A DNA stretch of 64,000 nt from positions 5,872,001 to 5,936,000 of the forward strand of contig NZ_CP069396.1 of NCBI RefSeq assembly GCF_016887565.1. Direction: 5' to 3'. The notes under the pieces were generated by a model, which was given only the letters and a program-made list of their open reading frames with translations, was not told the origin of the DNA and searched no databases. The translations under genes were made by a program, and so were the position numbers. Source of the DNA: Archangium violaceum. Its GTDB lineage: Bacteria; Myxococcota; Myxococcia; Myxococcales; Myxococcaceae. This document shows, piece by piece, positions 3,438-27,767 of the stretch (position 1 is its first letter; each line of letters begins with the position of its first letter).

Positions 3438-3495
3438 TGCCCGTCGCCCTGTCCGAATCCTTGCCCCCGAAATCGATGAGAGAGGCACAGAGAAG

Positions 3496-6400: not shown

Positions 6401-9324
6401 GGGTGCTCGCGCCGGATGAGGTCTACCTGACCTTCGGCATCCTGCGGGAGCGCGTGCCGGGCTTCTCCTGGCTCATGAGCGTCTACGGCCTCTCGGAGCG
6501 AGCGGAGCACACGGACGTGTTGCTCGAGGGGCAGCGCGGGCTGCGCTCGGTGCTGTTCCGGGGGATCCGCTGGTCCTCTGTGCGCAAGGTGCTCGACTTC
6601 GGATGCGGGTACGCCTCGGACCTCATCTCGCTGGCCAGGAAGTTCCCGCACCTGTCCCTGCACGGCTACACCATCTCCGCGGAGCAGGCGGCCATCGACG
6701 AGGAGCGGGTGCGGGCGCGGGGTCTCCAGGAGCGCGTCCGGGTCTTCGCGCGAGACAGTGCGAAGGACGCCTTCCCGGATCGCTACGACGTGGCCTTCGG
6801 CTTCGAGGTCGCCACCCACGTGGCTGACAAGACCGCGCTGTTCTCGAACCTCTCGCGCAGCGTCCAGAACGGCGGGTTCCTGCTGCTCGCGGACTTCATC
6901 GCCAACGGCGCGTCGGCGATCAACGTCCAGGAGACCGCCTCGTACAACATCAACGCGGAGGAGTGGGCGGAGCTGCTGGCGCGTCACCACTTCCGTCTGG
7001 TGGAGAGCGTCGACATCAGCCGCGAGGCCTCCCACTTCCTCGATGATCCCGGGTTCGATCGCCACCTGGAGACCGTCACCCAGCGCTTCGGGCTGAACGA
7101 GCTGGTGAGGCGGAACTTCGATGCCATGCGCAACTTCGGCAAGGCACTCGAGAAGGGCCTGATGAGCTACGCGCTGCTGGTGGCCCAGAAGGACGAGTAC
7201 GCGGGTGGGCCCTACCTCGCCCGTGTGAACCGCGCGAAGCTCGGAGCCCTGACGCCGCTCGCGGCGTTCGAGGACGGAGGCGCCTGGGCGGCGCCCTCCG
7301 AGGAACTCGAGAACCTCGCGCCGCTCGCGTCGCGCGAGTGGGTGTACGAGGTGTCGTGGCCGGAGAAGGCGCGTGCGCCACGGCGCGATGACGCGCGGAG
7401 CGGTGAGGCACCCGGCCGGTGGCTGATCCTCGCGGATCGCACGGGCGTGGGTGACGCGCTGGCCGAGCGGATGAAGGCGCGAGGCGAGCGCTGCACGGTG
7501 CTCCACGCGGGCCTTGGCGACGCCAGGCAGCGGGGCGTCAATCCGACGGACCCCGCGGACTGGCAGCGGGTGCTCGACCAGGTGGCGCGAGACGGAGGTG
7601 GCCCCTTCCGGGGCGTGGTGCACCTCTGGGGTCTGGACTTCGGCGCGGGCGCGGCTCCGAGCGGGTCGGCGCTGGACGAGTCACTGCGGCTGGGATGCGG
7701 AGGCCTGCTCTCGCTGGTTCAGCGGCTCGGCCGCGGGACGGGCTCGAACGCGCGGCTCTGGCTCGTGACGCGGGGCGCCCAGGCCGTTGGCGCGGGCGCG
7801 GTCTCCGTTGCGCAAGCGCCCCTTTGGGGAACGGGCCGCGTGCTCGCGCTGGAGCACCCGGAGTTGTGGGGCGGGCTCCTGGATCTCTCCCCGGAGGTGG
7901 AATCGGGCGAGGTCGAGGCGCTCTGGGAAGAGCTGAGTGCGCCCGACGGTGAGGACCAGATCGCGTACCGCGGGCGGAAGCGGCACGTGGCCCGGTTGGT
8001 GCGCGGCGACGCGCCCGTGAAGGGCGACGTGACCTGGCGGAGCGACGGTGCCTACCTCATCACCGGCGGACTGGGCGGGCTCGGCCTGCAGGTCGCGCGG
8101 TGGCTGGTGGCGGGGGGAGTTCGTCACCTGGTCCTGGCCGGCCGCACGGGGCTTCCCGATCCGAGCCAGTGGGACACGATCCCCGGCGACAGCGACTCCG
8201 GACGGCAGATCAAGGTGGTCCGGGAGCTCCAGGCCCGGGGCGCCTCGGTGCGGATCGTCCGGTGCGACGTCGGCGAGCCGGCACAGGTTCGCTCGATGAT
8301 CGAGGAGCTCCGCAACGGCCCGGTACCGCTCGCGGGCATCTTCCATGCGGCGGGCGTTTCGGCGCACCGCTCGGCCATGGAGACCGGCCCGGAGGTCCTC
8401 TCCTCGGTGTTCCATCCCAAGGCCATGGGCGCCTGGATGCTGCACGAGCTGACCCGGGACCTGCCGCTCCACTGCTTCGTCTTGTTCTCCTCGGCGTCGT
8501 CCGTGTGGGGCTCCCAGGGCATGGCCGCCTACGCGGCGGCGAACCACTTCCTCGACGCCCTCGCACACCATCGCCGGTCGTTGGGGCTCGCCGCGACGTG
8601 CATCAACTGGGGGCGCTGGAGCGAAGGGGGCATGGCTGGCTCGGAGGAGGCGCAGCGCTTCTTCTCGCAGGTGGGCCTCGAGGCGATGCCGACCGAAGCG
8701 GCGCTGTCGCTCCTGGGGCGCCTCGTCGGCGCGGGAGTCACCCAGAGGACCGTCGCCTCCGTGGACTGGAGCCGCTTCAAGCCCCTTCAGGAGGCGAGGC
8801 GGCGGCGGCCCTTCCTCGAGAACATCGCGACGGTGCAGGAGACTCCGAAGGCTCCCACCAGCGACTCCCGCCCGGAGTTGTTGCTGCGCCTGGAGGAGGC
8901 GCCCACTGGCAGGCGCCGTGCCCTCCTGCTGGAACTCGTCCGGGCCGAGGCGGCGCGCGTGCTGGGTGCCCAGCCCTCCGCGTTGGAGCCGCAGCAGGGG
9001 TTCTTCCAGATGGGCATGAACTCGCTCATGTCCGTCGAGTTGAAGAATCACCTCGAGAAGAGCTTGCGGCACAAGCTCCCGTCGACGCTCGCGTTCGAGT
9101 ACCCGAGCGTCGCGGCCCTGACCGATTATCTGGCGAAGGAAGTGCCCGCGCTGGCGGCGCTCATTCCATCGCACGCCGAGCCGTCACGGACCGAGGCCGC
9201 CGGGTTGGATCCGGCCCTGGATGACGGCGCCATTCTCGAACTGCTGGGAGAGGCAGAGCGGCTGTCCGAAGCCGAGCTGCGTGAGCTTTCCCATTCTTTC
9301 GCTGGTGAGGACGCAAATGAGTGA
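3496..9324 (+). CDS. mtaE: Polyketide synthase module KS-AT-MT(O-methyltransferase)-KR-ACP
   Basis: A 1942-residue single-module PKS. The ATG at 3496 gives a short coiled N-terminal docking stretch before the KS; an in-frame start at 3427 would overlap the previous gene and adds no recognisable domain. KS: Cys212 in TACSSS, EAHGTGT and NVGH present. AT: Ser665 in [10 protein letters not shown]-type specificity motif (leans to methylmalonyl-CoA, though this motif is ambiguous in myxobacteria). Methyltransferase: SAM loop [10 protein letters not shown] near 1033. KR: GGLGGLG near 1524, AYAAAN later, no LDD-type Asp. ACP: GMNSL with Ser1843, the usual Asp before Ser being Asn1842. The methyltransferase sits between AT and KR. 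In MtaE-type modules this domain methylates the newly made hydroxyl oxygen; a C-methyltransferase cannot be excluded by eye, but the downstream MtaG-like gene favours O-methylation. Confidence 0.93.
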
Positions 9325-12300
9325 TGTCATGGAGAAGCTGGTTCGTGGTCTGTCTCCCGAGAAGCGCGTGAGCCTCGCCAAGATGCTCCTGCGTTCCGCT
9401 GGCGAGCCGGTGCCGGAGAAGAAGGCGGTGGAGCCCGTCGCCATCATTGGAATGGGCTGTCGCTTCCCGGGCGGGGTGAAGGACGCGGAGTCGTTCTGGA
9501 AGTTGCTGAGCGAGGGCGTGGACGCCGTCCAGGAGGTGCCGCGCAGCCGCTGGAACGTGGACGAGTATTACGATGCGGATCCCGCCGTCCCGGGGAAGAT
9601 GTACACGCGGAACGGCGCGTTCCTCGAGGGGGCGGATCTCTTCGACCCGTACTTCTTCGGCATTCCTCCGCGCGCGGCGGCGAACCTGGATCCCCAGCAC
9701 CGCCTGCTGCTCGAGGTGGCCTGGGAGGCGTTGGAGAACGCGGGCCTCTCGCCCAAGAGCCTCGCGGGGAGCAAGACGGGCGTGTTCATCGGCGGTGGCT
9801 CGGGTAACTACACCGAGCTCCTGCAGACCAAGGGCGCCGACAGCATCGACGCCAGCTATCTCACCGGCAACCTGCTCACGTTCGCGACCGGCCGCCTGTC
9901 GCACTTCCTCGATCTGCAGGGCCCGAGCCTCGCGATCGACACCGCATGTTCCTCCTCGCTCGTGGCGATCCACCTCGCCTGTCAGAGCCTGAGCTCCGGG
10001 GAGAGCACGCTGGCGCTCGTCGGCGGCGTGAACCTGATCCTCACGCCCCAGGGGACGATCACGACCTGCAAGGCCCGCATGCTGGCCGTCGACGGCCGCT
10101 GCAAGACGTTCGACGCCGAGGCGGATGGTTACGGGCGAGGAGAAGGGTGCGGAGTGGTGGTGCTCAAGCGCCTCTCCGACGCGCTCGCGGACGGGGACAA
10201 CGTGCTGGCCGTCATCCGCGGCACGGCGACGAACCAGGACGGGCACAGCAGCGATCTGACGGTGCCCAACGGTCTGGCGCAGCAGGCGGTGATCCGTCAG
10301 GCCCTGGAGAACGCGGGGCTCGAGCCCGCGCAGGTGGACTACGTGGAGGCGCACGGTACCGGGACCTCGCTGGGCGATCCCATCGAGCTGAGGGCGCTGG
10401 GGGCCGTGTTCGCGCGCAAGCGGGAGGACGGGCAGCCCCTCCGGGTCGGCTCGGTGAAGACCAACATCGGTCACACCGAGTACGCAGCGGGCATCGCGGG
10501 TCTGATCAAGCTCGTGCTGTCCCTGCAGCACCGTGAGATCCCCGCCCATCTGCACTTCAAGCGGGGCAACCCCTACATCCCCTGGAACGAGCTGCCGGTG
10601 GAGATCCCCACGCAGCGCACCGCCTGGACGGCGCGAAACGGGAAGCGCGTTGGCGGCGTGAGCTCGTTCGGCGCCAGTGGCACGAACGCGCACGTGGTGG
10701 TGGAGGAGGCGCCGGAGCAGGTGCGGAAGAAGGAGGGGAAGGAGCGGCCGAAGCACGTGCTGGGCCTGTCGGCGAGGAACGAGAAGGCCCTGCGGGAACT
10801 GGCGGGGAAGTACGCACAGCACCTGGAGGGGAAGGAGCAGGAGGGGCTGGGAGACGCCTGCTACACGGCGAACGCGGGGCGTGGACAGTTCACGCACCGG
10901 CTAGCGGTGGTGGGCGAGACGGTGGAGGGGCTGAGGAAGGAGCTGGCCGAGTACGCGAAGGGCGGGAAGGTGGAGCAGGGCGCGGTGGGCCAGGCGCCGA
11001 AGGCGGGAGCGGCGGAAGTGGTGTTCCTGTTCACGGGACAGGGAGTGCAGCACGAGGGAATGGGAAGGGAGCTGTACGAGACGCAGCCGACATTCCGAGC
11101 GGTGCTGGAGAAGTGCGACGAGGTACTGAGGCCGGTGCTGGGCGAGTCGCTGCTGGAGGTGCTGTACGGAGGAAAGGGACACCTGCTGGAGAAGAGCGGC
11201 GTGACGCAGCCGGCGCTGTTCGCGCTGGAGTACGCGCTGGCGCAGGTGTGGAGGGAGTGGGGAGTGAAGCCGGCGGCGGTGATGGGGCACAGCCTGGGGG
11301 AGTACGTGGCGGCGTGCGTGGCGGGGGTGTTCAGCCTGGAGGAGGGGCTGAAGCTGGTGGCGGAGAGGGGGAGGTTGATGGAGGAGCTGCCGGAGGCGGG
11401 GAGGATGGTGGCGGTGCTGACGAGGCAGGAGAAGGTGGAGCAGGCGGTGAAGGGGTACGAGGGGAGGGTGGAGATAGCGGCGATGAACGGGCCGGAGGAG
11501 ACGGTCATCGCGGGGAAGGCGGAGGCGGTGGAGGAGGTGGTGGAGAAGCTGAAGGGGCAGGGAGTGGAGTGCCGGCAGCTGAAGACGACGCACGCGTTCC
11601 ACTCGCCGCTGATGGGGCCGATGGAAGAGGCGTTCGAGAGGGCGGCGGGGAAGGTGAGGATGGGGAGGCCGGAGCTGGAGCTGGTGACGAACGTGAGCGG
11701 GAGGGCGGCGAGCGGGGGAGAGGTGAGCCAGGCGGGGTACTGGAGGAGGCACCTGAGAGAGCCGGTGAAGTACTGGGAGGGGCTCAAGGGGCTGTACGAG
11801 AAGGGGTACCGGGTATTCGTGGAGGTGGGGCCGAAGCCGACGCTGGTGGGGGTGGGGAAGAGGTACCTGGGGAAGGAGGAGGCGGAGTGGGTGGGGACGC
11901 TGAAGCAGGGAGGAAACGACTGGGAGCAGATGCTGGGGAGCCTGGCGAGGCTGTACGTGAGGGGAGTGGAGGTGGACTGGGAGGGCTTCGACAAGCACTA
12001 CGCCAGGCGGCGCATGCCGCTGCCGACCTATCCCTTCCAGCGTGAGCGCTTCTGGGTCGACTCCCTCATCCCCAACACCGATGTCCTCGTGACCTTCTAC
12101 CGGACCATCGTCCAGCTGGCGGAGGTCAACACGTCGGTCGAGTTCCCCTCGCTGCGCTTCGCCACGCTGCGTGAGCCCGTCCCGGGCTTCTCGTGGATCG
12201 CGATGTACAGGCCCGAGCCCGAGAAGGAGGCGAGCTACCGGAAGTTCTACGACCTCGCCCTGCAATCGAACCAGGAGATGGCCCGGACCATCTACCGGGG

Positions 12301-13420
12301 GCTCGACTTCTCGTCCTTCTCGCGCGTGCTCGACATCGGGTGCGGCCATGCCGCCGATCTCATCGATCTCGGCAAGGAGCATCAGCACCTCGAGCTGCAC
12401 GGGTGCAACATCTCGCCCGACCAGATCGCGGCGGGGCGGCAGCGCATCCGCGCCCTGGGCCTCGACGGCCGGATCTCGCTCCACTACCAGGACAGCTCGA
12501 GGGATCCGTTCCCCTCGACCTATGACCTGGTCATCGCCTACCAGGTCATCCACCACATCCGGAACAAGGCGGATCTCTTCGCGAACATCAGCCGGAGCCT
12601 GCGCAACGGGGGCTACCTGGTCATGGCCGAGACCATCTCGAACATGAGCAGCCCCATCGAGCACCCCGAGTCCACCACGCTCTTCGTGCCCCAGAGCGAG
12701 TGGTCCGAGCTGCTGGCCCGCAATCAGCTCCGGATCGTCGAGTGCGTCGAGGCCAGCCAGGAGATCGCCAACTTCCTCTACGATCCCGACTTCGATCAGA
12801 ACTTCGCTCGGGTGACGCGAGACCTGGACGAGGTGACCCAGAAGCACCTGCACGGCATCCACATGCTGGGGGAGCTGCTCCGGCGCCGGCTGGCCGCCTA
12901 CATCCTGTTCACGGTGACGAAGGACGAGTCGCTGGATGTGGACACGCTCCGGCGCATCAACGCCGAGCGGCTGAGCGCGAGCGCACGCGTCTCCTACGGG
13001 GACGTCTACGCCTCGGTCCAGAAGGGCCCGTACGCGCTGCCCCCCGCTCCGGAGGCCGCGACGCTCGCGGGCTCCTCCGGGTCCACGAGCGCCTTCTCGA
13101 ACGTGTTGCTCTCCGCGGAGCCCGGCCAGCGCGGCCAGCTGCTCGACAGCTACCTGCGCGAGCTGGTCGGCAACCTGCTGAAGATGCCGGTCGCCAGACT
13201 GGATCCGCAGCAGCCCTTGAACACCCTCGGCATGGATTCGCTGCTGTCGCTCGAGCTCAAGCACAAGATCCACGCCGAGACGGGCGTGAACATGCCCCTC
13301 GATGAGGTGCTGCAGGGCGCGAGCATCTCGCACCTGTCGCTCCGGTTGGCGGAGCGGCTCGACGGGAGTGGCACGGGGTCCGCGGCGGAGAGCCAGGACT
13401 GGGAGGAAGGCGAGCTGTGA
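9317..13420 (+). CDS. mtaF: Polyketide synthase module KS-AT-MT(O-methyltransferase)-ACP, no reductase
   Basis: A 1367-residue PKS whose ATG at 9317 overlaps the previous stop by eight bases, suggesting translational coupling. KS: Cys211 in TACSSS, EAHGTGT, NIGH. AT: Ser659 in GHSLGE and HAFH at 759-762, a malonyl signature. Methyltransferase: LDIGCGHAAD from 1005, related to the one in the preceding gene. ACP: GMDSL, Ser1308. There is no KR, DH or ER, so the beta-keto group is left for methylation. This is the layout of MtaF, where O-methylation of the enol makes the beta-methoxyacrylate pharmacophore of cytochrome bc1 inhibitors. Residues about 465-900 are coded by the purine-rich AT segment, part of which recurs at the left edge. 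The alternative is C-methylation giving an alpha-methyl-beta-keto unit. Confidence 0.93.
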   Translation: MSDVMEKLVRGLSPEKRVSLAKMLLRSAGEPVPEKKAVEPVAIIGMGCRFPGGVKDAESFWKLLSEGVDAVQEVPRSRWNVDEYYDADPAVPGKMYTRNGAFLEGADLFDPYFFGIPPRAAANLDPQHRLLLEVAWEALENAGLSPKSLAGSKTGVFIGGGSGNYTELLQTKGADSIDASYLTGNLLTFATGRLSHFLDLQGPSLAIDTACSSSLVAIHLACQSLSSGESTLALVGGVNLILTPQGTITTCKARMLAVDGRCKTFDAEADGYGRGEGCGVVVLKRLSDALADGDNVLAVIRGTATNQDGHSSDLTVPNGLAQQAVIRQALENAGLEPAQVDYVEAHGTGTSLGDPIELRALGAVFARKREDGQPLRVGSVKTNIGHTEYAAGIAGLIKLVLSLQHREIPAHLHFKRGNPYIPWNELPVEIPTQRTAWTARNGKRVGGVSSFGASGTNAHVVVEEAPEQVRKKEGKERPKHVLGLSARNEKALRELAGKYAQHLEGKEQEGLGDACYTANAGRGQFTHRLAVVGETVEGLRKELAEYAKGGKVEQGAVGQAPKAGAAEVVFLFTGQGVQHEGMGRELYETQPTFRAVLEKCDEVLRPVLGESLLEVLYGGKGHLLEKSGVTQPALFALEYALAQVWREWGVKPAAVMGHSLGEYVAACVAGVFSLEEGLKLVAERGRLMEELPEAGRMVAVLTRQEKVEQAVKGYEGRVEIAAMNGPEETVIAGKAEAVEEVVEKLKGQGVECRQLKTTHAFHSPLMGPMEEAFERAAGKVRMGRPELELVTNVSGRAASGGEVSQAGYWRRHLREPVKYWEGLKGLYEKGYRVFVEVGPKPTLVGVGKRYLGKEEAEWVGTLKQGGNDWEQMLGSLARLYVRGVEVDWEGFDKHYARRRMPLPTYPFQRERFWVDSLIPNTDVLVTFYRTIVQLAEVNTSVEFPSLRFATLREPVPGFSWIAMYRPEPEKEASYRKFYDLALQSNQEMARTIYRGLDFSSFSRVLDIGCGHAADLIDLGKEHQHLELHGCNISPDQIAAGRQRIRALGLDGRISLHYQDSSRDPFPSTYDLVIAYQVIHHIRNKADLFANISRSLRNGGYLVMAETISNMSSPIEHPESTTLFVPQSEWSELLARNQLRIVECVEASQEIANFLYDPDFDQNFARVTRDLDEVTQKHLHGIHMLGELLRRRLAAYILFTVTKDESLDVDTLRRINAERLSASARVSYGDVYASVQKGPYALPPAPEAATLAGSSGSTSAFSNVLLSAEPGQRGQLLDSYLRELVGNLLKMPVARLDPQQPLNTLGMDSLLSLELKHKIHAETGVNMPLDEVLQGASISHLSLRLAERLDGSGTGSAAESQDWEEGEL
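11484..12060 (+). repeat. Copy B of the acyltransferase-coding repeat
   Basis: Direct counterpart of bases 1-577. The purine-rich, AGG-using tract of which it is part runs from about 10,715 to about 12,010 and therefore covers the whole AT plus the KS-AT linker; sequence on both sides returns to normal codon choice. Confidence 0.95.
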
Positions 13421-16400
13421 ACACCGACGAACTGGTCGCCGAGCTGTCCAGGCAGGGGGCGACGCTCTGGGTCGAGGGCGAACGGCTGAAATACCGGGCT
13501 CCCAAGGGCGCGCTGTCGCCGGAGACCCTGAACCTGCTGGCCACGCACAAGGTCGCGCTGCTCCAGCACTTGCGACGGCTCGCCGCGGATGGCGAGTCCG
13601 TCCATCCCCTCTCGCATGGGCAGCAGGCGCTCTGGTTCGTCTACCAGGTGGCACCCGACAGCGCCGCGTACAACACGGCGCTGTCCATCCGCATCGTCTC
13701 CGAGCTGGACATCCCCGCGCTGCGGCGCGCCTGCCAGGCGCTCGTCGACCGGCACGGAGCGCTGCGCACGACCTTCTCGACCCACCAGGGTCAGCCGATC
13801 CAGAAGGTCCGTCAACGGGGCGAGGTCCACTTCGAGCAGGTGGACGTCTCGGACCTCGACCCCGAGGCCCTGCGGACGCGGGTGACGCGGGCCTACGAGG
13901 CGCCGTTCGATCTGGAGCGAGGTCCGCTGATGCGCGTGTACCTGTTCTCCCGGGGACCCCGGGAGCACGTGCTGCTGATCGCGATCCACCACATCGTCTA
14001 TGACGGGTGGTCGCTGCTGGTGCTCGGCGACGAGCTCCTGCGGCACCTCTACGCGGCGGAGAAGGCCGGGACTCCGGCCGCTCTTCCCCCGCCGCGCGCG
14101 ACGTACGTGGACTACGTCCGCTGGCAGGCCGAGATGCTCTCGGGGCCCACGGGGCAGCGGCTCTGGGAGTTCTGGTCCAAGCAACTGGCGGGGCCCCTGC
14201 CGGTGCTGAACCTTCCCTTCGCGCGTCCCCGGCCCGCCGTGCAGAGCTACGCGGGTGCCTCGATCCCGGTCTCGCTGGGCGGGGCATTGACCCGGCGGCT
14301 GCGGGCGCTCTCCGAACAGGAGGGCGCCACGCTCTACACCACGCTCCTGGCCGCGTACATGGTGCTCCTGCACCGCTACTCGGGCCAGGATGACATCCTG
14401 GTCGGGACGCCGACGCTCGGCCGCACCCAGCCGCAGTTCGCCCAGGTCGTGGGCAACTTCATGAACATGATCGCGCTGCGGGGGAACCTCTCCGAGGATC
14501 CCTCGTTCCGCGGTTTTCTCGGGCGGCTCCGGCAGACGGTCGTCGGCTCGCTCGCGCATCAGGATTTCCCCTTCCACCTCCTCGTGGAGAAGCTGAACCC
14601 GGAGCGCCACTCCAATCGCTCGCCCATCTTCCAGGTGGCCTTCATGCTCCAGCCGACGCCCCGGGAGGACATCTACCAGGGTGACGAGGAGAACCCGGCG
14701 CTGCCCGGCGGGCTCGTGCTGCGGCCCTTCGACATCCCGCAGCAGGAGGGGCAGTTCGATCTGTCCCTGGAGCTGACGGAGACGGACTCCGCCCTGGGCG
14801 GCGTACTGAAATACAGCACGGACCTGTTCGATGCGGCCACCGCTCGCCGGATGGTGGGTCACCTGGAGACGTTGCTGGAGGGCCTTGTCGAGTCCCCGGA
14901 TCTGCGCCTGTCCGACCTGCCGCTCCTGCCGGCCGACGAGCGCCGCCTGGTGCTCGAGACCTGGAACGAGACCTCGACCCCACTGTCCCAGGCGGCGTGC
15001 ATTCACGAGCTGTTCGAGGCGCGGGTCCAGAAGGCCCCGGACGCCATCGCGGTGGTCTCGGGAGACCAGCGGCTGACCTACCGCGAGCTGAACGCGCGCG
15101 CGAATCGTCTGGCGCATCGCCTGCGGGCGCTCGGCGTCGGCCCGGAGGTGCGGGTGGGTCTGTGCGTCTCGCGCGGCCCGGACATGATCGTCGGCATGCT
15201 CGGCATCTTGAAGGCGGGTGGCGCCTACGTGCCGATGGATCCGACCTATCCGGCGGACAGGCTCGCCTTCATGCTCGCGGACTCCCAGGCGCCGGTGGTC
15301 CTGTCCGAGGAGCGATTGCGCTCGCTCCTGCCGGACACGGCCGCGAAGGTGGTGTGCCTGGATGCCAGGGATGACAGCGCTCCTGGTGAGCTGGACAATC
15401 CGAGGAGCGGCGTCCACGCCGAACACGTCGCCTACACCCTCTACACCTCGGGCTCCACGGGGCGGCCCAAGGGGGTCATGGTCTGCCACCGCAACGCCGA
15501 GAGGTTCTTCGCGGCGATGGACGACTCCATGGACAGCCGCGAGCGGGGCACCTGGCTCGCGACGACCAGCATGTCGTTCGACATCTCCATTCTGGAGATC
15601 CTGTATTCCCTCACCCGGGGCTTCCAGGTGGTGCTCCGCGGCGAGCAGCGGGCGGCGGCCCCCCGGCCGGTGGTTCGCGCCGGTGCGTCCGGCAAGGCGC
15701 TCGAGTTCAGCCTGTTCTACTTCGCCAGCGACGAGCGCGAGAACACGCACGGCAAGTACCGGCTGTTGCTCGAGGGGGCGCGGTTCGCGGATGAGCACGG
15801 CTTCACGGCGGTCTGGACCCCCGAGCGGCACTTCCATCCCTTTGGCGGCATCTTCCCGAACCCTTCCGTCGTGAGCGCCGCCCTCGCGGCGACCACCCGG
15901 AACATCCGGCTCAGGGCGGGCAGCATCGTGCTCCCGCTGCACAGCCCCATCCGGGTCGCGGAGGAGTGGTCCGTCGTGGACAACCTCTCCGGAGGCCGGG
16001 TGGATCTCTCCTTCGCGTCGGGGTGGCACCCGAACGACTTCGTGCTCGCGCCCGAGCGCTTCGCCGATGCGCGGCGCCTCATGATCGACCAGGTCACGAC
16101 CGTCAAGAAGCTCTGGCGGGGAGAGCAGGTCTCCTTCCGGAACGGGCAGGGCCAGGAGGTCGCGGTCCAATCCCTGCCCCGGCCGATCCAGTCCGATGTC
16201 GCGGTCTGGCTGACGGCCGCGGGCAACCCCGAGACGTTCCGCGCCGCCGGAGAGCTCGGCGCCAACGTGCTCACCCACCTGCTCGGCCAGAACCTCACGG
16301 AGCTGGCGAAGAAGATCCAGATCTACCGTGACGCCTGGAAGGCCAGTGGCCATGGCCCTGGAGGCGGCCACGTCACCCTCATGCTGCACACGTTCATGGG

Positions 16401-18669
16401 GGAGGACACCGACAGCATCCGCCAGAAGGTGAACGGGCCTCTTCGCCAGTACCTGAAGAGCTCCGTGGGCCTCCTGCGGTCCGTCATCGGGCCGTTGCCG
16501 CACGGCGCCGAGCTCGAGTCCCTCAGCGAGGCGGACATCGATCTGCTGCTCTCGCGGGCGATCGATCGGTACTTCGATCAGATGGGTCTGTTCGGGACGG
16601 TGGAGGACTGCCTGCCGATGATCGCCAGGCTTCGCGAGCTCGGGGTGGATGAGATCGCGTGCCTGATCGACTTCGGCGTGGACGTCGAGTCCACGCTGAC
16701 GGGGCTCCGGACGCTGAACGAGCTGCGGGAGCGGTGCACCCGGCGCGAGGAGCCCGAGGACATCCCGTCGCTCATCGCGCGGCACGAGGTCACCCATTTC
16801 CAGTGCACCCCGTCGATGCTGCGCATGCTGCTCATGGAGCCGGGCGGCACCGAGTCGCTCCGCGGGCTCAAGAGACTGCTCGTGGGCGGTGAGGCCTTCC
16901 CACCCGCACTGGGCCAACAGGTCCGTCCCCTGGTGGGGGGCGAGGTGCTCAACATGTACGGGCCGACCGAGACGACCATCTGGTCGTCCTTCGATCGGCT
17001 GGCGCATGGTGAGTCCACCATCTCCATCGGCCGCCCCATCGCGAACACCCGGATGTACCTGCTGGATGGGCGCCTGCGGCCCGTGCCGGTGGGGGTTCCC
17101 GGCGAGCTGTTCATCGGAGGGGAGGGTGTGGCTCGGGGCTACCTGGATCGCCCGGAGCTGACGGCGACGCGGTTCATCCCCGATCCGTTCGGACGGGAGC
17201 CCGGTGCTCGCCTGTACAGGACAGGAGACCTCGGGCGCTATCTGCCCGATGGCCGCATCGAGTTCCTGGGTCGTCTGGATCAACAGGTCAAGATCCGTGG
17301 TGTCCGCATCGAGCCGGGCGAGATCGAAGCGGTGCTGCGCCAGCACCCGGAGATCCGTCAGGCGGTGGTGGTGGCGCGAGCCGATGCCGCGGGAGAGGTG
17401 AGCCTCGTGGCCTATGTCGTGGCGGGCCCGGAGGCGAAGGTCGCGCCCTCGGAGCTGCGGCGCTTCCTCCAGGACAAGCTGCCGGCCTCGATGATCCCCT
17501 CCCAGTTCGTCCGTCTCGACGCGCTGCCGCTGACCCCGAACAAGAAGCTGGACGTCCGGGCCCTCCCGGCCCCCGACGCGCCTCCGCCGGAGCTCTCGGC
17601 CGTCTATGTCGCTCCGCGGGATGCGCTGGAGCTGGAGCTCGCCACCCTCTGGGAAGAGCTGTTCGACCTGCGCCCCATCGGGGTCACCAGCAGCTTCTTC
17701 CAACTGGGGGGCCACTCCCTGCTGGGCGTCCGGCTGATGTCCCGGCTGCGCGCGAGGTTTGGCCAGCAGCTCCCGGTCTCGCTCCTGTTCCAGGCCGACA
17801 CCATCCAGAGGATGGCGGCCCTGCTGCGCCAGGAGGGGGTCGGGCTCGCTCGTGAGTCGCTGGTGAGGATCCAGGAGACGGGCGACAAGCCGCCGCTCTT
17901 CTTCGTGCATCCGACGGGCGGAGACGTGCTCTGTTACGCGCCGCTGGCGAGGCAACTCGGCCCCCGGCAGCCCTTCTACGCGCTGCAATCCCTGGCGGAC
18001 CAGGAAGCCGGGTCGATCGAGGAGATGGCGGCGCGGTACCTGGAGGAAGTGCGCAAGGTCCGTCCGACGGGTCCCTACCGCCTCGGCGGCTGGTCCACGG
18101 GCGGAATCGTCGCGCAGGCCATGGCCCGGCGGCTGGAGGAAGCGGGAGAGCAGGTGGAGCTGCTCATGCTCCTGGAGACCTGGTCTCCGGAGATCTACCA
18201 GCGCTCCGACGAGCCCTCCGCGCTCATGGCGTGGTTCGCCACGGATGTGCTGGGCGGGGTGGAGGCGGCGAAGCTCGATCCGGCGCGGCTCGAGGCGCTC
18301 GATGAAGCGGGGCGGCTCGGTTACCTGGTCGAGCGCGCGAAGGAGGTCGGCGCGCTACCGGGTGTCGAGCTTCCGGAGCTGGAACAGCGGTTCCGGATCT
18401 TCGCGAGGAACGCTCGCGCCCTGGCCCGCCACCGGGCGGACTCCTACCGCGGCAGGGTCCTCTTCCTCCAGGCGGAGCAGGTGGCCACGCACCCGACGGA
18501 GACGCTTCCCGCGCCGGCGGAGAGCTGGGGCCAGCGCCTGGCGCAGGCGCTGGTGCAGAAGGTGCCGGGCAATCACTACACCTTGTTGCAGGCCCCCCAT
18601 GTTCGTGAGGTCGCGGACCGGATGACCTGCTATCTGGAGCAACTCGGCGCGCCTTCCGGGCCGCGGTGA
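13417..18669 (+). CDS. mtaG: NRPS with monooxygenase inserted in the adenylation domain: C-A(MOX)-PCP-TE
   Basis: A 1750-residue terminal NRPS; GTG start overlaps the preceding stop by four bases. Residues 1-55 look like a TubC-type docking domain. Condensation: HHIVYDG from 191. Adenylation: TSGSTGRPKG near 675, A4 with Asp722, A5 NMYGPTETT near 1179, NKKLDVRALP near 1375. Between A4 and A5 (about 760-1105) lies a flavin luciferase-like monooxygenase (SFASGWHPND and flanks). PCP: LGGHSL, Ser1434. Thioesterase: GWSTGG, Ser1560, and His1720. Aligning the pocket by eye gives D-I-L-Q-L-G-M-I-W, close to the glycine code. In MtaG/MelG this architecture loads glycine, hydroxylates its alpha carbon and cleaves it, leaving a terminal amide. 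Only this family is known to me to combine these features, so the assignment is strong; the exact product is inferred. Confidence 0.93.
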   Translation: MNTDELVAELSRQGATLWVEGERLKYRAPKGALSPETLNLLATHKVALLQHLRRLAADGESVHPLSHGQQALWFVYQVAPDSAAYNTALSIRIVSELDIPALRRACQALVDRHGALRTTFSTHQGQPIQKVRQRGEVHFEQVDVSDLDPEALRTRVTRAYEAPFDLERGPLMRVYLFSRGPREHVLLIAIHHIVYDGWSLLVLGDELLRHLYAAEKAGTPAALPPPRATYVDYVRWQAEMLSGPTGQRLWEFWSKQLAGPLPVLNLPFARPRPAVQSYAGASIPVSLGGALTRRLRALSEQEGATLYTTLLAAYMVLLHRYSGQDDILVGTPTLGRTQPQFAQVVGNFMNMIALRGNLSEDPSFRGFLGRLRQTVVGSLAHQDFPFHLLVEKLNPERHSNRSPIFQVAFMLQPTPREDIYQGDEENPALPGGLVLRPFDIPQQEGQFDLSLELTETDSALGGVLKYSTDLFDAATARRMVGHLETLLEGLVESPDLRLSDLPLLPADERRLVLETWNETSTPLSQAACIHELFEARVQKAPDAIAVVSGDQRLTYRELNARANRLAHRLRALGVGPEVRVGLCVSRGPDMIVGMLGILKAGGAYVPMDPTYPADRLAFMLADSQAPVVLSEERLRSLLPDTAAKVVCLDARDDSAPGELDNPRSGVHAEHVAYTLYTSGSTGRPKGVMVCHRNAERFFAAMDDSMDSRERGTWLATTSMSFDISILEILYSLTRGFQVVLRGEQRAAAPRPVVRAGASGKALEFSLFYFASDERENTHGKYRLLLEGARFADEHGFTAVWTPERHFHPFGGIFPNPSVVSAALAATTRNIRLRAGSIVLPLHSPIRVAEEWSVVDNLSGGRVDLSFASGWHPNDFVLAPERFADARRLMIDQVTTVKKLWRGEQVSFRNGQGQEVAVQSLPRPIQSDVAVWLTAAGNPETFRAAGELGANVLTHLLGQNLTELAKKIQIYRDAWKASGHGPGGGHVTLMLHTFMGEDTDSIRQKVNGPLRQYLKSSVGLLRSVIGPLPHGAELESLSEADIDLLLSRAIDRYFDQMGLFGTVEDCLPMIARLRELGVDEIACLIDFGVDVESTLTGLRTLNELRERCTRREEPEDIPSLIARHEVTHFQCTPSMLRMLLMEPGGTESLRGLKRLLVGGEAFPPALGQQVRPLVGGEVLNMYGPTETTIWSSFDRLAHGESTISIGRPIANTRMYLLDGRLRPVPVGVPGELFIGGEGVARGYLDRPELTATRFIPDPFGREPGARLYRTGDLGRYLPDGRIEFLGRLDQQVKIRGVRIEPGEIEAVLRQHPEIRQAVVVARADAAGEVSLVAYVVAGPEAKVAPSELRRFLQDKLPASMIPSQFVRLDALPLTPNKKLDVRALPAPDAPPPELSAVYVAPRDALELELATLWEELFDLRPIGVTSSFFQLGGHSLLGVRLMSRLRARFGQQLPVSLLFQADTIQRMAALLRQEGVGLARESLVRIQETGDKPPLFFVHPTGGDVLCYAPLARQLGPRQPFYALQSLADQEAGSIEEMAARYLEEVRKVRPTGPYRLGGWSTGGIVAQAMARRLEEAGEQVELLMLLETWSPEIYQRSDEPSALMAWFATDVLGGVEAAKLDPARLEALDEAGRLGYLVERAKEVGALPGVELPELEQRFRIFARNARALARHRADSYRGRVLFLQAEQVATHPTETLPAPAESWGQRLAQALVQKVPGNHYTLLQAPHVREVADRMTCYLEQLGAPSGPR

Positions 18670-18717: not shown

Positions 18718-19698
18718 GTGGGAATTCATGTCGCGAGGTTCAAGGTCGGAGAGGAGACCCGCTGGGGGCTGGTCCGCGAGGAACAGGTCATCCCCATTCC
18801 CGGGCAGTACTCCTCCCTGGCCGAGTTCCTGGGTGAGGGCGCGGCCCGTGCCCGGGCGCTGGCCATGGGAGGGCAGGGGGAGGCCATTCCCCTGGCCCGG
18901 GTCGAGCTGCTCGCGCCGGTCACCGCGCCCTGCAACGTGGTCTGCCAGGGCCAGAACTACCGGAGCCACATGTTGGAGGTGGGGCAGGATCCGGACGCCA
19001 AGGACTTCAACCAATTCTTCCGGAAGGCGTCCTCGTCGCTGGCCTCGAACCAGAGCAACATCCTCAAGCCCGCGCGGGTCCGGATGTTGGATTACGAGAT
19101 CGAGCTGGGCCTCATCATCGGCCGGAAGATCTCGGGGCCCGTGCGGGTGGAGCGGGAGCGGCTGCACGAGTTCATCGCGGGGCTCGTGATCTGCAATGAC
19201 ATCTCCGCCCGGGATCTCCAGCTTCTCGAAGGTCAGTGGTACAAGGGCAAGAGCTTCCGGACGTTCTGCCCCGTGGGTCCGTACGTGTACCTGATCGATC
19301 AGGAGGACATCGCGAGGCTGATGAATCTCAGGCTCGTGCTGTCCGTGAATGGCGAGGTCCGGCAGGACGCCAGTACGGCGGAGATGGTCTACCCGCCAGA
19401 GGAGACGCTCACGGAGCTGTCGGAGCTCATGGATCTGTATCCAGGAGATCTCCTGTTGACCGGGACGCCCAGCGGCGTGGCGGCCGGCCGCAACATGTCG
19501 AAGCTGGCCCGGAGCGTGGGGAAGCTGATCAGCGTGTTCCTGTCCGACAAGACGCTCGCGAAGATCATCTTGAAGAAGCAGTCGGGCGACAACAGCGCCT
19601 ACCTGAAGGACGGCGATGTCATCCGGGCCTCCATCTCCAGCCCGGATGGTGTCATCCACCTGGGGACCCAGGAGAACCGGATCGTTGATGGGCGATGA
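18718..19698 (+). CDS. Fumarylacetoacetate hydrolase family protein
   Basis: 326 residues with GTG start at 18,718 and a clear AGGAGGT ribosome site at 18,704-18,710. The C-terminal two thirds read as an FAH fold: CQGQNYRSH, DYEIELGLIIG, NDISARDLQ, and GDLLLTGTPSG, the acidic residues of which normally hold a divalent metal. Family members hydrolyse or decarboxylate C-C bonds of 2,4-dioxo or acylpyruvate substrates, or hydrate dienoates. It lies 48 bases after the terminal NRPS on the same strand, so it is probably co-transcribed. It is neither the nitrilase-like nor the methyltransferase gene that I recall following melG, so a tailoring, editing or by-product clearing role is only a guess. 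It may also be an unrelated catabolic gene. Confidence 0.85.
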   Translation: MGIHVARFKVGEETRWGLVREEQVIPIPGQYSSLAEFLGEGAARARALAMGGQGEAIPLARVELLAPVTAPCNVVCQGQNYRSHMLEVGQDPDAKDFNQFFRKASSSLASNQSNILKPARVRMLDYEIELGLIIGRKISGPVRVERERLHEFIAGLVICNDISARDLQLLEGQWYKGKSFRTFCPVGPYVYLIDQEDIARLMNLRLVLSVNGEVRQDASTAEMVYPPEETLTELSELMDLYPGDLLLTGTPSGVAAGRNMSKLARSVGKLISVFLSDKTLAKIILKKQSGDNSAYLKDGDVIRASISSPDGVIHLGTQENRIVDGR

Positions 19699-19827
19699 GG
19701 CAACCTGGCCTTCGCCTGCGGCTGCACGGACGAGCGCGACGCCTACGTGCTGCGCTTCCGCATCGACGAGGCGGGGTCAGCGGTGGCGGGTTGAAGCCAC
19801 GCAGGAGCCACCGAGCGAGGAACCCTG

Positions 19828-19990
19828 TCAGAAGAACGGGATGAGGTGGAGGTAGTTGACCCGGACCCGGAACGCCCAGCACGCCCGCGCGTGCAGGGTC
19901 CATTCCTCGCCAGGGAGCTCCCCCTTGGCCTGGAGGAAGAGCTCCACCGGGCCGTCACTCGCCAGTTGGGTGAGGTCCACTCCTCTTCCA
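19828..19990 (-). pseudogene. C-terminal fragment of an unidentified protein
   Basis: About 50 codons ending in a stop at 19,828-19,830 translate to a protein-like tail (DGPVELFLQAKGELPGEEW ... NYLHLIPFF). Upstream the frame loses protein character. I do not recognise the family; a real short gene is unlikely because no start or ribosome site fits. Confidence 0.35.
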
Positions 19991-20004
19991 AGACGGATTG
20001 GAGC

Positions 20005-20085
20005 AGGGGCCCGGAGGGAGCAGCTTCGGGTGGCGCTGGTCGGGTACACCAACGCGGGCAAGCCCAAAGCCGCGCAGCCCCTTGG
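20005..20085 (+). pseudogene. HflX-like GTPase P-loop fragment
   Basis: The + strand frame here reads LRVALVGYTNAGK, which is the hallmark G1 block of the HflX ribosome-splitting GTPase, but the following S-T of the P-loop is replaced (GKPKAAQ) and no other HflX motif follows. It looks like a small displaced piece of hflX rather than a gene. Chance resemblance is possible given only about 14 matching residues. Confidence 0.4.
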
Positions 20086-20183
20086 GGTAGACGCCTGCCC
20101 AGGCCGCCCTCCCATGAGGTGCGCGGCAGGGGCCTGGCTCTCTTCTCCTCCTCTCCTGCTTGAGGGCCGCGCGCTCGAATTTT

Positions 20184-20777
20184 TCAGCGGCGGGCCGGAG
20201 GGCGGCGTTCCCGCCTGACATCGCTGCTCCCTCGATTCGTCAGGATCGCGCTGGCAATAACACCGAAGAGATGATCCGCGCGTGGCGCGAGCGAGGGTTG
20301 GTCGCCGAGCCACGCGAGCGCCCCGATCAGCGCGAACAGGTCGGCGCCATCAATGTCGGTCCGCGCCATGCCTTCGGCTTGAGCGCGGGCGAGCAGCCGC
20401 GTGCCTGCCGCGCGCATTTTAACGCACGAAGCATGGAGTGCGGAATCGGGGTCTGCGATGGCGGCCACCATCGCAGCCACAACGCCGCGATAATTACGCG
20501 CGACCGCGACGGCTTCGCGTAGCCACGACACGAGAGCGTCGTCGGATGAGCCCGACGTTTCGAGTCCGCCTGCCCTTGCCGTCAGCTCGTCGAAGCTCGC
20601 GCGGAGCAAGGCCTCGAGCAACGCCTCTCGCGTCGGGAAGTGACGGTACAGCGTGCCGAGCCCGACGCCAGCTCTGCGGGCGACGTCGCGCAGCGATGCG
20701 TCGGCGCCTTGCTCGGTCACGACGTCGCGCGCGACTGCGAGTAGGTGGTCGTAGTTCTTCCTGGCGTCGGCTCTCAT
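20184..20777 (-). CDS. TetR/AcrR family transcriptional regulator
   Basis: 197 residues from the ATG at 20,777, chosen because it places the DNA-binding helix-turn-helix at the usual distance (DASLRDVARRAGVGLGTLYRHF, residues about 25-46). The longer open frame upstream runs through the divergent promoter and is unlikely to be translated. The C-terminal ligand domain is of ordinary length and unremarkable. The gene is divergent from an MDR oxidoreductase, with an operator-like repeat in the 89-bp gap, so it probably represses that neighbour and itself in response to a small molecule. Inducer unknown. Confidence 0.88.
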   Translation of the reverse strand: MRADARKNYDHLLAVARDVVTEQGADASLRDVARRAGVGLGTLYRHFPTREALLEALLRASFDELTARAGGLETSGSSDDALVSWLREAVAVARNYRGVVAAMVAAIADPDSALHASCVKMRAAGTRLLARAQAEGMARTDIDGADLFALIGALAWLGDQPSLAPRADHLFGVIASAILTNRGSSDVRRERRPPARR

Positions 20778-20786
20778 ATGTTCCAG

Positions 20787-20833
20787 TTGACAAACGGGGC
20801 ACTGCTCCGAATATGTGGAGCACCGCTCCGAAT
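20787..20833 (+). promoter_or_regulatory. Divergent promoter/operator between tetR and the oxidoreductase
   Basis: TTGACA at 20,787-20,792 is followed 17-18 bases on by an AATATG/TATGTG element, a plausible promoter for the + strand gene. Overlapping it is TGCTCC (20,803-20,808) mirrored by GGAGCA (20,817-20,822), and GCTCCGAAT is repeated at 20,804-20,812 and 20,825-20,833. Such symmetric and direct half-sites are typical TetR operators. Confidence 0.6.
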
Positions 20834-20866
20834 CCGATTGATACATCTGCCGTGAGGGACAAAGCA

Positions 20867-21877
20867 ATGTCGACAAACACGATGAAGGCGATCCGGCTGC
20901 ACGAATTCGGTGGCCCTGAGGTGCTGCACTACGAGGAGGTGCCGCTTCCCGAACTGAAGCCGGGTGAGGTGCTCGTTCGTGTTCACGCGGTCGGCATCAA
21001 TCCCCCCGATTGGTACTTGCGCGACGGGTACAAGATGCTTCCTCCCGAATGGAGGCCGCCGGTGCCCTTGCCCGTCATTCCGGGGTCGGACGTGTCGGGC
21101 GTCGTCGAGGCCGTTGCCGAGGATGTGCAGGGCTTCTCCGTCGGCGATGAGGTTTTCGGCATGATCCGCTTTCCCAGTTTCGGGGAGAGCGCTGCTTATG
21201 CCGAGTACGTCGCTGCGCCTGCGTCGGAACTGGCACGCAAGCCGGCCGGCATCGAGCACGTGCACGCCGCGGGGGCGCCGATGGCAGGGCTCACCGCGTG
21301 GCAGTTCCTGATCGAGCTGGGGCACAATGAACCGAATCCGTTTCAACCGGAGAGGCATCGACCGGTGCCGCTCAACGGTAAGACGGTGCTCGTCAATGGT
21401 GCCGGGGGCGGCGTGGGGCACTTCGCGGTGCAGCTTGCGAAATGGAAGGGTGCGCACGTCATCGCCGTGGCATCGGGCAAGCATGAGTCGTTCCTGCGCG
21501 AGTTCGGCGCCGACGAATTCATCGACTACACCAAGAGCCCTCCTGAGGACGTCGCGCATGACGTTGATCTCGTCCTCGATACCCTTGGCGGTCCCACCAC
21601 CGGTCGTTTCTTGCGCACGCTCAAGCGTGGCGGCGCGTTGTTCCCGGTGTTCTTGGGCTTCTCCGATGCCGAGGAGGCCGCGAAGCTGGGCGTCACGGTC
21701 TCGATGACCCAAGTACGCTCGAACGGCCCGCAGCTCGCGGAGCTCGGGCGCTTGCTCGATGCCGGGACGGTTCGCGTCGCCATCGACAGCACGTTTCCGC
21801 TTGCCGATGCGCGCAAGGCGCACGAACGGGCCGCCCGTGGGAACATCCAAGGCAAGATCGTGCTCATCGTCGCGTGA
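20867..21877 (+). CDS. Zinc-independent MDR oxidoreductase (quinone reductase/NADP alcohol dehydrogenase type)
   Basis: 336 residues. N-terminal GroES-like domain (RLHEFGGPEVL near 10, GINPPDWYLRDG near 45, PGSDVSGVVEAV near 75) and a C-terminal Rossmann domain with the NADPH loop NGAGGGVGHFAVQLAK near 185. The catalytic and structural zinc cysteines of alcohol dehydrogenases are absent, which places it with quinone oxidoreductase-like enzymes that reduce alpha,beta-unsaturated carbonyls or quinones. ATG at 20,867 follows GAGGG; MKAIRL at 20,882 is an alternative start. Divergent from tetR and probably controlled by it. A role in the polyketide pathway is not indicated; detoxification is more likely. 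Confidence 0.88.
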   Translation: MSTNTMKAIRLHEFGGPEVLHYEEVPLPELKPGEVLVRVHAVGINPPDWYLRDGYKMLPPEWRPPVPLPVIPGSDVSGVVEAVAEDVQGFSVGDEVFGMIRFPSFGESAAYAEYVAAPASELARKPAGIEHVHAAGAPMAGLTAWQFLIELGHNEPNPFQPERHRPVPLNGKTVLVNGAGGGVGHFAVQLAKWKGAHVIAVASGKHESFLREFGADEFIDYTKSPPEDVAHDVDLVLDTLGGPTTGRFLRTLKRGGALFPVFLGFSDAEEAAKLGVTVSMTQVRSNGPQLAELGRLLDAGTVRVAIDSTFPLADARKAHERAARGNIQGKIVLIVA

Positions 21878-21885
21878 GGACGAAA

Positions 21886-21940
21886 GCGTATAGGCGGGAG
21901 AGAGGCCATGGGGTTGGGGCGTATAGGCAGGAGAGAGGCC
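21886..21940 (+). repeat. Two-copy tandem repeat downstream of the oxidoreductase
   Basis: GCGTATAGGCGGGAGAGAGG and its near copy start at 21,886 and 21,919 (22-base unit, one mismatch, period 33). No coding or hairpin role is evident. It sits a few bases past the oxidoreductase stop, at the start of a gene-free stretch that leads into the 154-bp repeat. Confidence 0.7.
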
Positions 21941-22004
21941 GTGTTGAGGGGGAGGGCTGGAGCAGACGGGCCGAGGAGGGCCGCTGACGGGGGCCGCCTG
22001 AGCA

Positions 22005-22158
22005 GGAGTAGGCCCATGGCTCGGCCCCTTTGCGTGAGTCCCGCCATGCCCAGGCAACATCCAGGCGCCGCGGAGCTCAGGGGTTCGTGAACCCGATGAG
22101 CTGGTGACCCGCGACGACCCGGACGGTGTTGTCCGGCGGCGTCGGGTTCTTCGTGAGC
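22005..22158 (-). pseudogene. Truncated 3' copy of the lipoprotein gene at 26,541 (154-bp direct repeat, copy 1)
   Basis: Identical by eye to 26,469-26,622. On the - strand 22,077-22,158 encodes the last 27 residues of the lipoprotein at 26,541-27,743 (KNPTPPDNTVRVVAGHQLIG and on) with the same stop and the same downstream flank. At 22,158 it is cut off against the IS110 remnant, so this is a severed gene end. Confidence 0.9.
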
Positions 22159-22590
22159 TCAACGCGGGACGCACCGCACCGGCGAAGCCTCTTCCCAAGG
22201 TGCGCCATGCTTCTGGCCGTAACGAGCCGGCCTTCGATGCCCGCAGCGCGCTCTACACCTTGCTGGGGGCCGACCTCTCCCAGATTCACGGATTTGGTCC
22301 CTACACCGTGCTTCGCCTCATCGCCGAGTGCGGCGATGACATGCGCAAGTGGCCAACGGCCAAGCACTTCACCTCGTGGCTGTGCCTGGCGCCAAGCAAC
22401 AAGATTTCCGGGGGACGGCTGCTCAGCTCCCGGACGCGTCGCTCCTCCAACCGCGCGGCGACGCTGCTGCGGATAGCCGCCGTCAGCATCGGCCGTACTC
22501 AGACAGCCCTGGGGCCTTCTACCGGCGCCTGGCGGTGCGTACCGGGAAGGCCAAGGCTGTCACGGCCACTTCCCAGGCTCAACTCAAAGG
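22159..22590 (+). pseudogene. IS110-family transposase, C-terminal remnant with frameshift
   Basis: The + strand reads as the C-terminal half of an IS110/transposase_20 protein: DARSALYTLLGADLSQIHGF, GPYTVLRLIAECGDD, WPTAKHFTSWLCLAPSNKIS. Near 22,510 the homology jumps to another frame (GAFYRRLAVRTGKAKAVTAT), so there is a frameshift, and the N-terminal RuvC-like half with the DEDD residues is missing. Start and end of the element are not visible. It abuts the severed lipoprotein end, which suggests that the element, or recombination at it, carried the repeat. Confidence 0.85.
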
Positions 22591-22918
22591 GTGGCCCTTC
22601 TTCGTCCACATATTCTTCCAAGCCTGATGCGTCGAAGGCGCGTTTCTTCATCCAGGACGGATTGCCTGGGGCCAGGACCGCCCAGAGAGGCCACCGGTTC
22701 ATTGCGCACCTCCGGCCAAGTCCTCGGGCAGCTTAAACGCGGCGCGCAATTGCTTCGTCTCGTCCAGTATTTGAGCCTCCTCTAACTTGATGATTCTAGC
22801 GGGATTATCCTTGTATTTCTTGGACTTCCCGAGGCCACGGTGCCAGGAGCGAAGTCCAACTCATTTCATGGGGTGTCAGCTATGCTGGCGTGAATCACCG
22901 ATACAAGGGGGTAACCAG
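22591..22918. other. Non-coding stretch before the metalloprotease gene
   Basis: About 330 bases without a convincing gene. The first part is more IS110 decay. From about 22,780 the sequence becomes AT-richer and probably holds the promoter of the lipoprotein gene, but I cannot fix a -35/-10 pair. Confidence 0.5.
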
Positions 22919-26008: not shown

Positions 26009-26540
26009 AGGGCAACACGTGACGGAGATGGCCCCTGTCTTGGTCCGGACATGGGGCCAGTTCCTCCTTCTCCTTGGGGGAGCCATAGGCGCCGCCAGGG
26101 CGTCGCCGTGCCACGGGTGACGTAAGTCCGTTCTCCGTCCAGTGGCCCAGGTCTCGGCGTCTCCCTGCCCTCCTGCCAGGAGAGCCCAGCGTGAGCCTGC
26201 CCCTCCCCGGCCACACCTCGCCAGGGCACACGCTATCGCCAGGCTCCCACGAAACCCCGTCAGGCCCGCTCTGGGAGTGCCAAGCGGCGGGTTCGATTCC
26301 CGCCGCCTCCAATAGAGGTTGTCCGCCGCCTCGAGTCGACAGTTCGCGGGCGTCTTCAACGGCAAGACGTTCTGGGAGTTCCTACTGATCGCCGCTCACG
26401 TCGCGAGGTTCCAGTGATCACCAACCAGCCGGGCCGGAATGGGAACGGGCCATCACCCAGGCACGGCTGGAGTAGGCCCATGGCTCGGCCCCTTTGCGTG
26501 AGTCCCGCCATGCCCAGGCAACATCCAGGCGCCGCGGAGC
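26009..26540. other. Gap of about 530 bp with tRNA/tmRNA 3' end and scraps
   Basis: No full gene is seen. It contains the tRNA-like 3' end (26,284-26,311), a 30-codon protein-like + strand tail ending with TGA near 26,415 (GVFNGKTFWEFLLIAAHVA) of unknown family, and from 26,469 the flank that is part of the 154-bp repeat. The mix fits an old integration or rearrangement site. Confidence 0.6.
26284..26311 (+). other. 3' end of a tRNA or tmRNA (T arm plus acceptor strand), possible att remnant
   Basis: The bases fold as a perfect T arm (GCGGG, loop TTCGATT, CCCGC at 26,287-26,303) followed by the seven-base acceptor strand CGCCTCC and discriminator A. No matching 5' half (GGAGGCG or GGGGGCG) lies upstream, so it is not a gene. 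The sequence resembles the ssrA (tmRNA) 3' end; tRNA-Ser is the alternative. Integrases commonly use exactly this segment as attB, leaving such a copy at the far end of an island. Confidence 0.65.
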
Positions 26541-27743: not shown

Positions 27744-27767
27744 GGGACCTCCTCAACCGCGTTGTAA

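Follow-up and report, generated by a model that had tools for sequence, protein, structure and literature searches.

Myxothiazol is an antifungal compound. Myxothiazol A is made by the products of mtaBCDEFG, in which MtaB, MtaE and MtaF are polyketide synthases (PKSs), MtaC and MtaG are nonribosomal peptide synthetases (NRPSs) and MtaD is a hybrid of the two; when these genes were transferred into Pseudomonas putida, myxothiazol A was obtained (PMC4495716). The flavin monooxygenase of the myxothiazol and melithiazol clusters, located between the a4 and a5 motifs of the adenylation (A) domain, is described as hydroxylating the glycyl residue, and the cleavage that follows yields a C-terminal amide and a glyoxyl thioester, the latter being hydrolyzed by the thioesterase (TE) (PMC10204066). 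Much the same account of glycine cleavage driven by the monooxygenase (MOX) is given in PMC11342130.

The protein described here is encoded in a window of 64,000 nucleotides, i.e., the whole stretch of DNA that was analyzed, which corresponds to positions 5872001-5936000 of a single-contig genome of 13,213,980 bases; negative coordinates denote positions upstream of the window. The mtaG-like gene at 13417-18669 (forward strand, GTG start) encodes a terminal NRPS of 1750 aa with the architecture TubC_N-C-A(MOX)-PCP-TE, as read from its open reading frame (ORF), Pfam, NCBIfam and motifs. Pfam places TubC_N at residues 4-53, Condensation at 62-510, AMP-binding in two stretches, Bac_luciferase at 769-1079 (1.5e-47), AMP-binding_C at 1302-1377, PP-binding at 1408-1470 and Thioesterase at 1493-1734. 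The C-domain motif HHIVYDG lies at residue 191, A3 (YTSGSTGRPKG) at 676, A7 (YRTGD) at 1267, A8 at 1285, A10 at 1371, the PCP motif LGGHS at 1430 and the TE motif GWSTGG at 1558, and all other core motifs searched are present. Bracketed by an intact A4 (FDIS, 721) and A5 (YGPTE, 1181) is the luciferase-like flavin monooxygenase (residues 764-1104; 15706-16728, forward strand), identified by profile and motifs. It covers the whole of TIGR04020 (positions 1-341), the NCBIfam profile of the MupA/Atu3671 family of FMN-dependent luciferase-like monooxygenases, at 531.5 bits against a curated cut-off of 244.45. A first-pass annotation of this DNA had proposed the order C-A(MOX)-PCP-TE with an insert of about 345 residues between A4 and A5; both the order and the position hold, with 341 residues by the profile and the TubC_N docking domain in addition. 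MelG of the melithiazol pathway likewise has its MOX between A4 and A5 of a terminal glycine module (PMC10204066).

The predicted structure of the A(MOX)-PCP stretch (mean pLDDT 82, pTM 0.54) is to be read domain by domain and not for relative placement. With TM scores normalized by target length, Foldseek matched parts of the model to NRPS A domains, e.g., 4d56 (TM 0.78), and to the PuwE oxygenase domain in 6ket (TM 0.88, with 51% identity); the latter is also the closest solved structure to the insert by sequence (E 5.3e-120). PuwE shares the flavin monooxygenase family with the insert; its oxygenase lies between PKS and NRPS modules, next to an aminotransferase, and the 2-hydroxy group of a beta-amino acyl chain is attributed to it (PMC4219810). 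Because counterparts of the insert in ten other genomes are 79-91% identical, and the whole mtaG-like proteins 76-89%, the presence of a MOX inside this A domain is not a matter of chance.

With specificity positions anchored on motifs, the code of the A domain reads DILQLGMIWK. This equals the code shared by four MOX-bearing glycine domains (PMC12283262), and glycine, the substrate named in the first-pass annotation, is accordingly the predicted one. In an alignment of the window's domain with 44 others hand-picked from 54 usable references, DI[LV]Q[LM]GM[IV]W was found in all 45 complete A(MOX) domains. The references came from 60 screened loci (29 by genome searches and 31 among the best 80 named loci), from which two loci with stops and four without YGPTE were left out, so that the count of glycine codes applies to complete A domains. 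Nine code positions were compared across the other domains; the anchor of position 517 is one residue off, and the window's A domain has a Lys at both possible places. A terminal C-A-PCP-TE module with a MOX between A4 and A5 and a glycine code is thus common to this locus and mta.

Judged from gene order and types, which fit mtaBCDEFG, the genes upstream complete an mtaB-G-like operon whose members overlap or nearly touch. The mtaB-like starter PKS (from -22513; 4035 aa) has two KS, three AT, two DH, two KR and three ACP domains, one ACP being N-terminal, and so has the loading part and two extension modules of MtaB that go with the heptadienyl side chain. It is followed by an mtaC-like NRPS of 1353 aa (upstream of the window, L024:591-4652), in which Condensation, A, PCP and Nitroreductase domains give the order Cy-A-PCP-Ox, and by an mtaD-like NRPS/PKS hybrid of 3425 aa (L024:4160-14437, by Pfam) with the order Cy-A(Ox)-PCP-KS-AT-DH-KR-ACP. 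The latter starts near -6.3 to -6.8 kb, and its 3' part occupies 1-3437 on the forward strand; its Nitroreductase lies ahead of the AMP-binding_C part, and its true start is probably about 160 codons later, because the docking domain begins at residue 168. An mtaE-like PKS (3427-9324) and an mtaF-like PKS (9221-13420), both on the forward strand and read from Pfam and motifs, have the orders KS-AT(VASH)-MT-KR-ACP and KS-AT(HAFH, malonyl type)-MT-ACP, respectively. Directly 3' of the mtaG-like gene is a gene of the fumarylacetoacetate (FAA) hydrolase family (18718-19698, forward strand, PF01557).

Pfam names the N-terminal domains of the mtaC- and mtaD-like proteins Condensation; from their DxxxxD motifs, DAITVD and DLLVAD, both are predicted to be heterocyclization (Cy) domains. 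The A4/A5 residues of the two Cy-A modules fit the Cys code printed in PMC12283262. Two Cys heterocyclization modules with nitroreductase-type Ox domains, the mta feature that stands for the thiazoles, are therefore found upstream of base 1, where the first-pass annotation had expected them. PF08242 occurs in both 3427-9324 and 9221-13420, so that two MT-bearing PKS modules precede the terminal NRPS as in mta. A table in PMC2613160 gives one PF08242 each for mtaE and mtaF, in a column read as O-methyltransferase, and O-methyltransferase domains for melE and melF, and by analogy the MT domains of the present proteins are putative O-methyltransferases.

Eleven clusters of this type were recognized in the family. 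A search for the MOX domain in 96 genomes of the Myxococcaceae gave matches at E<=1e-100 in 61, and, among the matches listed, identity was at least 79% in only eleven genomes, this one included, the next best being 63%; in the same search, none of five other genomes of this genus had a match of at least 79%. A better match of the insert to another NRPS family, which would have spoken against the earlier reading, was thus not seen among the matches listed. The mtaF-like protein is 73-78% identical to its orthologues in nine genomes, the mtaE-like protein 72-78% in nine and the mtaD-like protein 63-74% in nine at full or near-full length. The FAA hydrolase is 72-89% identical in all ten other genomes and has the same place after mtaG in all eleven clusters. 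The nearest relative found is the cluster of Pyxidicoccus fallax DSM 14698 (L025; G056, contig C114), with the closest MOX counterpart (91%, among the matches listed) and 89% identity in both the mtaG-like protein and the FAA hydrolase. Its 4016-aa ORF shares 84% identity with the mtaB-like protein across the 2836 aa used in the search, its mtaD counterpart is 86% identical over the 1261 aa searched and its mtaF counterpart 86% over 543 aa. This cluster is spread over at least two contigs, in which an mtaE-like counterpart was not located, and its host stands elsewhere in the RpoB tree.

The most informative comparison is with genome G037, which we take to be Stigmatella aurantiaca DW4/3-1. 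Between the two, all six genes B-G share 71-80% identity, as does the FAA hydrolase, with 75% over 4019 aa for the mtaB-like protein, and the clusters agree in gene order, domains, the C-A(MOX)-PCP-TE terminus, the glycine code and the FAA hydrolase after mtaG. In both genomes alike, the short motif patterns failed to pick up the DH sites of the mtaB-like protein and two of its three ATs; its middle AT, read by eye, agrees with G037, its loading AT reads GYSVG and its DH domains rest on Pfam. In a comparison that covered all but the loading AT, the AT motifs are equal in the two genomes, namely YAFH and YASH in the extender ATs of B, HAFH in D, VASH in E and HAFH in F. The clusters differ in the level of protein identity and in the host genus. 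Myxothiazol is listed as conserved in Stigmatella (PMC12766979). The divergence of 20-30% from G037 leaves room for another congener. A degenerate cluster was also considered and was dismissed, as the reading frames of B-G are open and their domains present.

Whether such a cluster belongs to the amide or the ester branch can be read from other genes. In G060, G069, G071 and G072, an LCM-family methyltransferase and a CN_hydrolase, the ester-forming enzymes named MelJ and MelK, adjoin the FAA hydrolase. Counterparts of the two at 79-85% were found only in G060, G069 and G072 among ten genomes searched; weaker LCM matches are one in G056 (37%) and a second one in G072 (32%). The mtaB-like protein is full length in this genome, G035-G038 and G058, and shorter in three of the four ester-type relatives (1878-1939 aa in G069, presumably M. 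stipitatus DSM 14675, and in G071 and G072), with 3111 aa in G060. The G060 cluster, at about 458.7-477.7 kb (L156, L157), has the ester-type genes together with this 3111-aa protein and one A3 motif in the mta genes before E, as compared to two in the other nine full clusters; it apparently has one thiazole module and possibly specifies a one-thiazole congener.

A melithiazol- or cystothiazole-type cluster, with a methyl ester and a short side chain as its product, has in its favor that the ester-type clusters share C-G with the present one at 63-77% (C of G060 over 995 aa only) and that a review table credits Archangium gephyra with melithiazols and not with myxothiazol (PMC8401837). However, the present mtaB-like protein is full length at 4035 aa, with two extension modules as compared to the 1878-1939 aa of G069, G071 and G072, and neither the LCM methyltransferase nor the CN_hydrolase of the four ester-type clusters finds a match in this genome at E<=1e-20. 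As the cluster lacks the short mtaB and the genome, at that threshold, the ester-type genes, a melithiazol-type product was rejected, and we regard it as quite unlikely. A full-length mtaB without ester-type genes points instead to myxothiazol A, a primary amide. An altogether unrelated pathway that happens to end in C-A(MOX)-PCP-TE, e.g., that of another lipopeptide, was weighed as well, as the same architecture does occur elsewhere. Homologues of the whole protein in Cylindrospermum (L027), Corallococcus terminator (L042) and Streptomyces sp. SAJ15 (L072) share 43-45% identity with it across 1724-1793 columns; in the flanking DNA covered, up to 10 kb on either side, nothing matches the methyltransferase portion of the mtaE- or mtaF-like protein. 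A MOx is likewise described within the glycine A domain of corallorazine-like (crz-like) NRPSs of Serratia and Pseudomonas, which are alike by description but serve a lipodipeptide pathway (PMC11342130). Against this stand the identity of the insert, 79-91% to the mta/mel group versus 63% or less to the rest of the family among the matches listed, and the complete B-F set that precedes the gene and has counterparts in other genomes. On these upstream genes an unrelated pathway was rejected, and its probability seems to us negligible.

The myxothiazol-type reading is therefore carried by the neighbors and not by the insert. The first-pass annotation had known the A(MOX) architecture only from MtaG, MelG and CtaG and had taken it to identify a beta-methoxyacrylate pathway. 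The pathway itself is upheld by the neighboring genes B-F and is narrowed to the myxothiazol amide branch, but the insert alone is not diagnostic, and the architecture is not confined to those three proteins. Seven TIGR04020 matches exceed the cut-off in this genome, six of them in large ORFs, the window's included; the MOX of L015 sits in an internal module, within a complete A domain of the glycine type, and that of L014 in a protein whose end comes shortly after the PCP. When the best 80 named loci were classed by short, strict patterns, 48 had a complete A(MOX)-PCP, 11 a degenerate A domain, 3 were stand-alone or short, and 18 fell elsewhere, 13 of these with A4 and A5 present and no match to the PCP pattern. 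A PCP-TE ending was recognized by pattern in four of the 80, from P. fallax, Cylindrospermum, Corallococcus terminator and a Streptomyces. In the Streptomyces locus L072 (808-1845 and 10001-11029), the C-A(MOX)-PCP-TE stretch is preceded at a distance of about 6 kb by another MOX-like stretch, which shares 45% identity with the present MOX.

Taken together, the protein at 13417-18669 is very probably the MtaG-like last module of a complete PKS/NRPS line of the myxothiazol type, the most likely product of which is myxothiazol A. By analogy with the published system, its A domain would load glycine and its C domain would couple this residue to the bithiazole-methoxyacrylate chain delivered by the mtaF-like protein. 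The flavin monooxygenase in the A domain would then hydroxylate the alpha carbon of the PCP-bound glycyl residue, and the resulting carbinolamide would break apart, so that the chain would depart as a primary amide while glyoxylate would stay on the PCP, to be removed by the TE. Nothing in the sequence contradicts this chemistry. The MOX could also be active without cleavage of the carbinolamide, in which case the chain would leave as the alpha-hydroxyglycine acid; solanimycin B does retain alpha-hydroxyglycine after a glycine module that bears a flavin monooxygenase. However, the solanimycin enzyme has its monooxygenase between a8 and a9 and is followed by chain extension, whereas here the insert lies between A4 and A5 of a terminal module with a TE, as in MtaG (PMC10204066). 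We consider the uncleaved product very improbable and retain release of the primary amide as the expected outcome.

Three further MOX domains of this genome (L016-L018 set), found by TIGR04020 and patterns at genome positions 7137781-7138800 (reverse strand), 2372684-2373703 (forward) and 10277638-10278660 (forward), lie in relic A domains. Their A3, A4, A5 and A8 patterns are gone, and no AMP-binding_C or PP-binding precedes the next C domain, which gives the order C-A*(MOX)-C; at two of the three loci (L218, L219) the ORF starts with KS-AT. Eleven of the best 80 named loci are of this relic-A type as classed by patterns. A literature search, with most subscription papers beyond its reach, found no description of a MOX in relic A domains. 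A TIGR04020 protein in its own 382-aa frame (L019; 7179447-7180448, reverse strand) directly follows a frame with a carrier-like stretch at its end and lies about 41 kb away from the L016 relic-A MOX. We tentatively suggest, as a possibility that we hold to be somewhat doubtful, that A(MOX) is a portable cassette with two fates: it would cut chains to form amides in complete glycine A domains well beyond the beta-methoxyacrylates, and in relic A domains it would serve as an oxygenase scaffold that hydroxylates a chain on another carrier domain.

As for the genomic setting, the nearest genome by RpoB (G004, 99.0%) has no such cluster. It is colinear with this genome at window positions 32834-54552 (94%) and at -59999 to -57295 (93%), and between these flanks it has 26.4 kb of other DNA versus about 90 kb here. 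In the codon-bias-filtered ORF list of those 26.4 kb, no ORF exceeds 813 aa, and hence there is no megasynthase. That an empty site proves a recent insertion was rejected, because gain in this genome and loss in G004 fit equally well. The stretch from the cluster to the conserved right flank (19699-32833) shows weaker codon bias over much of its length, and blastn gave no match of at least 250 bases in the G004 region compared; it contains genes for a zinc ADH (20438-21877), a TetR-like protein and a PAS/GAF histidine kinase, besides an IS110-type transposase fragment (22104-22736). An 814-aa protein with matches to family B DNA polymerase and RNase_H_2/exonuclease (35136-37580, forward strand) stands just before PolyA_pol. 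The PolyA_pol, tRNA_Me_trans and SPOR-domain genes, located at 37.6-42.7 kb of the window, follow in the same order directly after the cluster of G037; the roughly 18 kb of other DNA with the IS110-type fragment between the FAA hydrolase and PolyA_pol sets this genome apart from G037. Farther upstream, at about -55.8 to -34.4 kb (L022:3275-12835, L023:2832-13142, L023:13152-14564), a second NRPS locus encodes two proteins that both have three A domains, the second one also a TE; an Asp/Asn beta-hydroxylase-like gene comes next.

In the midpoint-rooted tree of the mtaG-like proteins, the present sequence groups with four g7 (Stigmatella-type) sequences (98/99) and P. fallax comes next, whereas the RpoB tree places P. 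fallax among Myxococcus-group genomes. The mtaG-like protein is 89% identical to that of P. fallax at an RpoB identity of 94%, and 80% identical to that of G037 at an RpoB identity of 96%. As the former is closer to P. fallax and RpoB is closer to G037, the cluster was likely transferred horizontally between the lineages of this genome and P. fallax, in either direction given the midpoint root.

The cluster is a further copy of a characterized assembly line and essentially ordinary for myxobacteria, and it opens no long-standing question directly. It does add a complete myxothiazol-type cluster to the genus of Archangium lansinium, for which the conserved clusters listed in PMC12766979 include none for myxothiazol. 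For the family, two marker genes, those of the LCM methyltransferase and the CN_hydrolase, separate the ester branch from the amide branch, and the spread of the architecture is a warning that a MOX inside an A domain alone does not mark a bc1-inhibitor pathway. If the two fates suggested for the cassette are true, the protein described here would be a well-understood anchor for the A(MOX) family.
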